Assembly: GCA_030425045.1 (NCBI GenBank)
Contig: JAUHVL010000006.1
Location: 132,677-165,434 of the forward strand
Direction: 5' to 3'
From: a bacterium
GTDB lineage: Bacteria > Bdellovibrionota > Bacteriovoracia > Bacteriovoracales > Bacteriovoracaceae
Length of the DNA: 32,758 nt
Of this stretch, positions 20,022 to 21,881 are shown piece by piece. Both the position numbers and the translations under genes were made by a program. A model generated the notes under the pieces. That model was not told where the DNA came from, did not search any database, and saw only the letters and a program-made list of their open reading frames with translations. How positions within the stretch are numbered: position 1 is the stretch's first letter; every line of letters begins with the position of its first letter.

Positions 20022-20903
20022 TTAGTTATTACCACCAGTCATTTTTGCAACTTCCTCAGCAAGGTTATCTTCTTTCTTTTCGATCCCTTCACCAAGGTTA
20101 AACTTTGCAAACTTTGTAACAGCAATATCAGCTCCCACACCTTCAATTAGCTTTTTCACTGTTAGGTCTGGATTCTTAATATATTTTTGCTCTAGAAGAC
20201 AAACTTCAGAAGCAAGTTTTTTAAGTTTTCCTTCAACAATTTTTTCAATCATATTCTCAGGTTTACCTTCTTCTTTTAATTGAGCAGCATAAATTTCAGC
20301 TTCTCTTTTCTTGAAACCTTCATCAATATCGTCTGAAGAAATAAACTTAGGATCAGCAGCAGCAATATGCATGGCCAGATCTTTCATCAAAGTTTGAAAT
20401 TGTTCAGAACTAGCATCACCAGCTGTCTTTGCACCAACAATTACTGAAATTCTTCCACCATGGTTATAGTAACCAACAGCAGATGCATCACTTACTCTAT
20501 CAAAACGACGGATATCAATTTTTTCTCCGATTTTTAATGTGAGCTCATTCACTTCAGCATCTTTCTCAGACTTTAAAGCAGTGATGTCAGCAGTGTTATT
20601 CTTTAATGTGTAGTCCGCAATTGATTTCGTAAAACCTTTGAAGTCATCACCTTTAGAAACAAAATCCGTTTCACAGTTTACTTCAACGATAACACCTGTA
20701 TTTCCTTCTACGATCGCTAGAACTTCACCTTCGGCAGCAACTCTTCCTTGCTTCTTTTTAGCAGCGGCAAGACCTTTCTTACGAAGAAAGTCGATTGCTT
20801 CATCCATATTTCCATTGCTTTCAGTAAGTGCTTGCTTACAAGCCATCATACCTGCACCAGTAGATTCTCTTAGTTTTTTTACATCAGCAGCGCTAAACGA
20901 CAT
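20022..20903 (-). CDS. tsf: Translation elongation factor Ts
   Basis: A 293-residue protein that recharges EF-Tu by exchanging GDP for GTP. The N-terminal UBA-like domain has LRESTGAGMMACKQAL, and the core motif CETDFVSKG (77-85), which contacts EF-Tu, is intact. It follows rpsB by about 45 bases and is closed by a strong terminator. Confidence 0.97.
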   Translation of the reverse strand: MSFSAADVKKLRESTGAGMMACKQALTESNGNMDEAIDFLRKKGLAAAKKKQGRVAAEGEVLAIVEGNTGVIVEVNCETDFVSKGDDFKGFTKSIADYTLKNNTADITALKSEKDAEVNELTLKIGEKIDIRRFDRVSDASAVGYYNHGGRISVIVGAKTAGDASSEQFQTLMKDLAMHIAAADPKFISSDDIDEGFKKREAEIYAAQLKEEGKPENMIEKIVEGKLKKLASEVCLLEQKYIKNPDLTVKKLIEGVGADIAVTKFAKFNLGEGIEKKEDNLAEEVAKMTGGNN

Positions 20904-20947: not shown

Positions 20948-21757
20948 TTAAGATTCTGTAGTAGTTTCTTCTTCAGTCTCTTCTTTTAAATCAATGTCTT
21001 GCTCAAACTTTGAGATAATTTCTTTTTCAAGAGATAAATCAGTTTTATCTTCAGAAACTTGTCTCATTGGCTTGTTTTTTGAACCTTCGATTACAGACTG
21101 AGAGAAGTAGTTAACAAAAAGACTAATTGATTTTATTGCATCATCATTACCTGGAACGACATAGTCGATACCATCTGGATCACAGTTAGTATCAGTGATA
21201 GCAACAACAGGAATTCCTAATTTATTAGCTTCTTTGATAGCGGTTCTTTCGTTACTTGGATCAACAATGAAAACAGCACCAGGTAGTTTTCTCATATCTT
21301 TAATACCACCTAAGTTTTTTTCAAGTTTGATAACGTCTTTTTCGATTTTTGATTGCTCTTTTTTAGTCAATAAACTGAAGTCACCAGTCTCTTTCATTTT
21401 TTCAACTTTTCTAAGTTTATCAACAGAAAGAGTGATTGTTTTATAGTTAGTGAGCATCCCACCAAGCCATCTGTGAGTCACATAAAATGCTCCACAAGAA
21501 TCAGCAGCATTTTTTACGGCATCAGATGCTTGTCTTTTTGTTCCAACAAAAAGAACTGGCTTACCTTCACTCGTAACTTTCTTCATAAAGTTATACGCTT
21601 TTTTGGCCATTGGAATCGTCTTAGCAAGATCAATAATGTAGATTCCATTTCTCTCACCATAGACATACTTTTTCATTTTTGGATTCCACTTATAAACTTG
21701 ATGTCCAAAGTGCGAACCTGCGGCCAATAAATCTTTTAATTCCAACTCATTACTCAT
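20948..21757 (-). CDS. rpsB: 30S ribosomal protein S2
   Basis: A 269-residue S2 with LKDLLAAGSHFGHQ near the start, then WNPKMKKYVYGERNGI, FVGTKRQASDAV and RWLGGMLTNY. The C-terminal acidic tail (EETEEETTTES) is longer than in E. coli. I choose ATG 21757 because GGAG lies 6-7 bases upstream; a TTG at 21769 would put that ribosome binding site inside the coding region. The leader upstream carries interleaved inverted repeats, described separately. Confidence 0.97.
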   Translation of the reverse strand: MSNELELKDLLAAGSHFGHQVYKWNPKMKKYVYGERNGIYIIDLAKTIPMAKKAYNFMKKVTSEGKPVLFVGTKRQASDAVKNAADSCGAFYVTHRWLGGMLTNYKTITLSVDKLRKVEKMKETGDFSLLTKKEQSKIEKDVIKLEKNLGGIKDMRKLPGAVFIVDPSNERTAIKEANKLGIPVVAITDTNCDPDGIDYVVPGNDDAIKSISLFVNYFSQSVIEGSKNKPMRQVSEDKTDLSLEKEIISKFEQDIDLKEETEEETTTES

Positions 21758-21770
21758 TTTTTTCTCCAAT

Positions 21771-21831
21771 GTTGATGGTTGTTCAAATCACCTGAAGCCA
21801 CACAAAAACGCGGACCATCAACCAGGTGATT
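21771..21831 (-). promoter_or_regulatory. rpsB 5' leader RNA: two interleaved 9-bp helices (pseudoknot or switch)
   Basis: Reading the transcript from 21831 down, the order is AATCACCTG (21831-21823), GTTGATGGT (21822-21814), a 19-base loop, CAGGTGATT (21794-21786), a 6-base link, then ACCATCAAC (21779-21771). Segment 1 pairs perfectly with segment 3, and segment 2 with segment 4. This crossing order is that of an H-type pseudoknot; segments 1 and 2 abut with no linker, so if both cannot form together the helices are alternatives. The last segment ends 3 bases before the GGAG ribosome binding site. S2 is known to repress its own rpsB-tsf mRNA through the leader in gammaproteobacteria; a similar role here is inference. 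Confidence 0.6.
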
Positions 21832-21852: not shown

Positions 21853-21881
21853 TTGATAACACAGGGGCTAAAAAGCGGCAA
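21853..21881 (-). promoter_or_regulatory. Probable sigma70 promoter of rpsB-tsf
   Basis: On the minus strand TTGCCG (21881-21876) and TATCAA (21858-21853) are separated by 17 bases, each with four of six consensus positions. A start near 21846 would begin the transcript about 15 bases before the interleaved helices of the leader. Confidence 0.45.

Follow-up and report, generated by a model that had tools for sequence, protein, structure and literature searches.

A diverged pseudoknot leader before rpsB in Bacteriovoracales and its probable role in autorepression by ribosomal protein S2

Introduction

In Escherichia coli, ribosomal protein S2 represses translation of the rpsB-tsf mRNA with the assistance of S1, a protein that binds pseudoknots with high affinity (PMC10931766). 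The step at which repression acts is unclear, and the operator reportedly includes neither the Shine-Dalgarno (SD) sequence nor the ribosome site (PMC10931766). A wider class of rpsB leaders, the rpsB motif, is known from Alphaproteobacteria and others, and is composed of a stem P1, an optional P2 and a P3, with a junction strand that pairs with a 3' extension of P1 (Meyer et al. 2009, PMC2704228). The rpsB motif is represented in Rfam by RF01815, and the E. coli form by RF00127 (t44), with which the E. coli leader scores 83.5 bits.

Here we compare these systems with the rpsB leader of a member of the Bacteriovoracaceae, contained in a stretch of 32,758 nucleotides that we refer to as the window. 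All features described below lie on its minus strand.

Results

The rpsB gene of the window (20948..21757) encodes an S2 protein 66-79% identical to named Bacteriovoracales S2 sequences, the closest of which come from Bacteriovoracaceae and Halobacteriovoraceae (76-79% identity). It is followed on the same strand by tsf (20022-20903) and then by pyrH, frr and uppS. Translation of rpsB starts at the ATG at 21757; a longer reading frame from a TTG at 21769 is a mechanical ORF only.

Read 5' to 3' on the mRNA strand, the leader runs AATCACCTG GTTGATGGT CCGCGTTTTTGTGTGGCTT CAGGTGATT TGAACA ACCATCAAC ATT GGAG AAAAAA ATG. A preliminary description of this DNA had drawn attention to four 9-base segments at 21771-21831 that pair perfectly and in crossing fashion, 1 with 3 and 2 with 4, and this reading is borne out. 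Segment 1 (AATCACCTG, 21823..21831) and segment 3 (CAGGTGATT, 21786..21794) are the two strands of P1, while segment 2 (GTTGATGGT, 21814..21822) and segment 4 (ACCATCAAC, 21771..21779) are the 5' and 3' strands of the pseudoknot helix. Segment 4 ends 3 nt before the SD sequence GGAG (21764..21767), the distance given earlier, and is separated from P1 by a linker of 6 nt (21780..21785), whose length in most relatives is 6-8 nt. A third helix, which had been overlooked, lies in the 19 bases separating segment 2 from segment 3: a P3 hairpin (CCGCG ... TGTGG, 21798..21813), within the P1 loop and present in the MFE fold.

Upstream of the leader, a bipartite element, TTGCCG-N12-TGTGTTAT (21856..21881), is probably its promoter. 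Of 75 Bacteriovoracales leaders, 49 (within L003-L110) carry the same element, with the consensus CTTGCNC-N12-TRTGYTAW, some 115-170 nt upstream of the rpsB AUG. Its spacing is almost constant among leaders and shorter than the usual sigma-70 spacer, and its strict form has just one further occurrence in the window's own genome. We infer the 5' end of the leader from this conserved promoter-like element. In many relatives (L009, L012, L014, L021, L023, L057, L081), an extra short hairpin (e.g. UCGCAAUAUUGCGA) is seen about 7 nt 5' of P1, and is possibly a 5'-end stabiliser; the window leader does not carry it.

The crossing helices were said at the outset to be very unlikely by chance. This is a fair statement, but the pairing is not overwhelming on its own. 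Within the window, 21771-21831 is the sole place where crossing perfect 9+9 helices occur within 80 nt. First-order Markov sequence of the window's composition gave 19 such pairs in 8.19 Mb, which corresponds to 0.076 per window, and random 103-mers of the leader's composition gave 2 in 30,000. When 521 kb of real DNA was scanned, such pairs turned up elsewhere only in rpsB leaders and at a single repeat locus (L190). The nested, pseudoknot-free MFE fold of the leader is of unremarkable stability (z -0.53), as the folding program cannot draw pseudoknots. Crossing helices of this kind are thus unusual yet possible by chance, and it is covariation that settles whether they are real.

We gathered 75 distinct rpsB leaders from same-family relatives and named Bacteriovoracales. 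Of these, 59 were aligned with MAFFT by sequence, not fitted to the structure (alignment A1); near-duplicates and leaders lacking a clear anchor (L022, L028, L033, L034, L107, L111) were omitted. Paired base changes, which the preliminary description had proposed to look for in related leaders, were found in both helices. In P1, 87% of cells are paired and 8 of the 9 pairs show two-sided changes; for the pseudoknot helix the figures are 88% and 6 of 8. P3 varies in both length and sequence among relatives; 78.5% of its cells are paired, and two-sided changes were seen at 4 of its 5 pairs. For the whole structure, the number of doubly changed cells was 216; shuffled alignments gave 74 (sd 10), and controls with slid partners at most 70. 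The covariation score of 0.388 compares with 0.166 in shuffles and at most 0.123 in slid controls. Every whole-structure measure was higher than in all 500 shuffles and in each of the slid controls. When the leaders were searched freely, one by one, for their best crossing helices, chance competitors were chosen in some cases, the window included, so it is the alignment-based counts that serve as evidence.

The GGU of segment 2 is almost invariant, and its partner in segment 4, an AACC core, is kept from E. coli to the window; the corresponding pairs (51-101, 52-100 and 53-99) are formed in 58-59 of the 59 leaders. The architecture is nevertheless kept where the core has changed, as in L010 (UGGCGGU/ACUGCCA) and L017 (UUUGAGGU/ACCUCAAA), and it is also carried with altered sequence by two leaders outside the alignment, L028 (UGCUUGU/ACAAGCA) and L111 (GGUGGU/ACCGCC). 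On inspection, the structure was not recognisable in the Bacteriovoracales leaders L022, L033, L034 and L107. The last three of these have in common a different conserved end, UUUCAGGAGAAGAC-AUG.

In a subgroup of leaders (L016, L020, L026, L079, L099, L100, L103), the pseudoknot helix is interrupted at its centre by an A-A mismatch (GGAUGGU/ACCAACC). Most of the cells left unpaired at columns 49/103 are due to this mismatch, which might represent a specific contact.

Judged from this alignment, there is a conserved structured RNA in front of rpsB in Bacteriovoracales, and its structure is real. Its distribution was followed with the covariance model R1, which represents P1 and P3 but not the pseudoknot. 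Against the window's own genome, R1 gave a single convincing match, before rpsB, at 68.6 bits, the runner-up scoring 22.1. In a sample of 290 genomes from the phylum, 89 of the 97 family genomes had a match at E<=0.1, a count in which the position of some of the weakest matches was unchecked; about 8% of the 97 had none. Matches in three genomes outside Bacteriovoracales (G212, G100, G241; E 3e-5 to 1e-4) were not before rpsB and were set aside as chance or unrelated.

In its arrangement the element corresponds to RF01815. Both occupy the rpsB 5' leader; P3 caps the P1 stem, and the 3' extension of P1 is the partner of a strand in the junction, as the covariation confirms. The loop strand ends in GGU and pairs with AACC after P1, and the 3' strand of the pseudoknot lies a few nucleotides 5' of the SD sequence (RF01815 consensus UUAACCGGUAAAAAGgAg). 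The E. coli leader has the same order, its GGGGU pairing with AACCCC after GAUACGUGGAGGCAU.

The differences are in the flanks and dimensions. No P2 helix, an optional part of the published motif, is visible here; the linker that separates P1 from the pseudoknot strand (L1) is 0-6 nt long in most relatives. In Bacteriovoracales, P1 is not flanked by CACAC at its 5' base or by GGAGG/GGuGG at its 3' base, the A1 consensus at these positions being CAnTCACTT ... AGGTGATTAGATTAACC, whereas E. coli has CACACAC/GUGGAGG and a longer internal stem. The pseudoknot reaches 9-10 bp here, against 5 in RF01815, and often touches or overlaps the SD sequence; it lies 13 nt before the AUG in the window and about 20 nt before it in E. 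coli.

The element also falls below the gathering cut-off of RF01815 (40 bits). Searches of the window leader at the curated cut-off and at E<=5 returned nothing relevant, with both RF01815 and RF00127 unmatched, and neither model exceeded its cut-off in any of the 290 phylum genomes. RF00127 gave three weak matches in the 59 relatives and two in the 290 genomes, and these were discarded; the one checked, in G026, lay off the rpsB contig. The Rfam models likely miss the element because the CACAC and GGAGG/GGuGG flanks are gone.

Discussion

We consider it likely that this element is the Bacteriovoracales form of the rpsB motif, beyond the reach of Rfam recognition, and that through it S2 represses translation of its own rpsB-tsf mRNA by means of the pseudoknot adjoining the SD sequence. 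In the mechanism that we propose, the 5' leader would fold into a 9-bp P1 whose loop contains the pseudoknot strand and the P3 hairpin, and the loop strand GUUGAUGGU would pair with ACCAUCAAC immediately 5' of the SD sequence. Free S2, when in excess over its 16S rRNA sites, would bind the P1/P3/pseudoknot core and stabilise the pseudoknot, probably with the assistance of S1 as in E. coli. The stabilised pseudoknot would keep the 30S subunit off the adjoining GGAG, so that less S2 and, by coupling, less EF-Ts would be made. Once S2 is consumed by ribosomes, the pseudoknot would open and translation restart.

The helices, their covariation and conservation, the position of the element and its homology are established by the comparison, while the roles given to S2 as ligand and to repression are inferred from E. 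coli, and SD occlusion is a proposal for this lineage. As the E. coli SD sequence reportedly lies outside the operator, SD occlusion may not be the mechanism here, and since the CACAC and GGAGG flanks are absent, the contacts made by S2 may differ. Transcription attenuation was ruled out, as a simple scan of the leader found no terminator-like site.

A purely structural role for the pseudoknot, in which it would protect the mRNA or aid initiation, for example via S1, with no feedback from S2, would be in keeping with the high affinity of S1 for pseudoknots (PMC10931766). We regard it as improbable, given that the element occurs before rpsB-tsf only and that the homologous E. coli leader is under S2 control.

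The preliminary description had offered either a pseudoknot or a two-state switch, and of these the pseudoknot is supported: P1 and the pseudoknot helix have no base in common and are therefore compatible, and both covary in the same molecules. Mutually exclusive helices are not supported. In most relatives the first linker, L1, leading from P1 to the 5' strand of the pseudoknot, is 0-6 nt long, and in many an L1 of 2-6 nt together with a constant L3 of 6-8 nt fits simultaneous pairing. With an L1 of 0, the leader in the window may be unable to stack all 18 pairs simultaneously. The strain that two full-length helices would suffer without a linker, in the window and in several other leaders, is the argument for a switch in which 1-3 and 2-4 are alternative, exclusive hairpins, one of them closing the ribosome site. 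Set against the unshared bases, the linkers of many relatives and the description of the homologous rpsB motif as a pseudoknot (PMC2704228), such a switch seems to us very unlikely.

In about half of the 75 leaders the gap from the pseudoknot to GGAG is at most 1 nt or the two overlap, compared with 3 nt in the window. A different arrangement is suggested by family f2. In L037, and less clearly in L036 and L040, 11 bases of complementarity link the P3 loop UCUUUUAGGUU to AACCUAAAGGA, a segment that takes in the SD sequence. The partner strand of the pseudoknot may here have shifted from the junction to the P3 loop.

Common descent of the Bacteriovoracales leader with RF01815/RF00127 is supported by comparison with sister families. 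A search with R1 of 37 rpsB loci, of which nearly all came from outside Bacteriovoracales, found three matches (L173, 5.9e-9; L122, 0.042; L042, 0.045), each at the leader, on the right strand and in register. In the sister family f21, R1 matched L206 (3e-9, the same place as L173), L203 (6.8e-5) and L205 (0.0021). The leaders L042, L050, L203, L205 and L206, all of the same phylum, share with Bacteriovoracales a pseudoknot CUGGU/ACCAG immediately 5' of the SD sequence. Of these, L042, L050, L203 and L205 differ in retaining CACAC (GCACC in L205) and GGAGG or GGuGG/GGCGG, and RF01815 scores two leaders below its cut-off of 40 (L042, 34.7 bits; L046, 29.0). L203 is canonical (UUCACACC...GGGGAGGUAUAACCAG; UUCACACCCUUCGG...CCGAGGGGGAGGUAUAACCAG), and L206 has nearly the Bacteriovoracales form (S2 46% identical), its CUCACUUCUCGG...CCGAGAAGGCGGUUUAACCAG being intermediate toward AUCACCUG...CAGGUGAUUAGAUUAACCA. 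Canonical leaders of different phyla were also aligned (A2, MAFFT), but the quality did not suffice for counting pairs, and A2 was left unused.

It is these graded intermediates and the cross-matches of R1 that lead us to class the element as a diverged member of the S2 leaders; by Rfam score it is not a member. The earlier suggestion of an independent or distant form of S2 control thus holds in its second half, with both the architecture and the chain of sister families linking the element to the known rpsB motif. Independent invention, in which the S2 leader would have had an origin separate from that of the rpsB motif and converged on a similar pseudoknot, would explain why RF01815 and RF00127 are blind to the window even at E<=5, why no phylum genome passes their cut-offs, and why CACAC/GGAGG is absent. 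It is nonetheless hard to reconcile with the identical order P1 - pseudoknot strand - P3 - P1' - AACC - SD and with the intermediates of f21 and other families, and we give it little credence. Chance complementarity, although random sequence with the window's composition yields one crossing 9+9 pair in about 430 kb, is refuted by the covariation counts and opposed by conservation across dozens of genera, and can practically be discounted.

A more far-reaching and rather doubtful possibility is that the S2 operator was rebuilt in Bacteriovoracales, with the ancestral CACAC/GGAGG contacts lost, the pseudoknot lengthened into the SD sequence so as to occlude the ribosome site directly, and recognition by S2 achieved via the GGUC/AACC core alone. 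If true, this would be a mode unlike that of E. coli, where the ribosome site is reportedly outside the operator.

The S2 leader is now extended to the predatory Bacteriovoracales and other Bdellovibrionota, a phylum in which the Rfam models place none of 290 genomes over the cut-off. The comparison separates the parts of the S2 operator that appear dispensable (CACAC, GGAGG and P2) from those that appear indispensable (the pseudoknot, GGU/AACC and P3). It bears on how S2 recognises an mRNA without visible likeness to its rRNA site, and on the manner in which S2 blocks translation.
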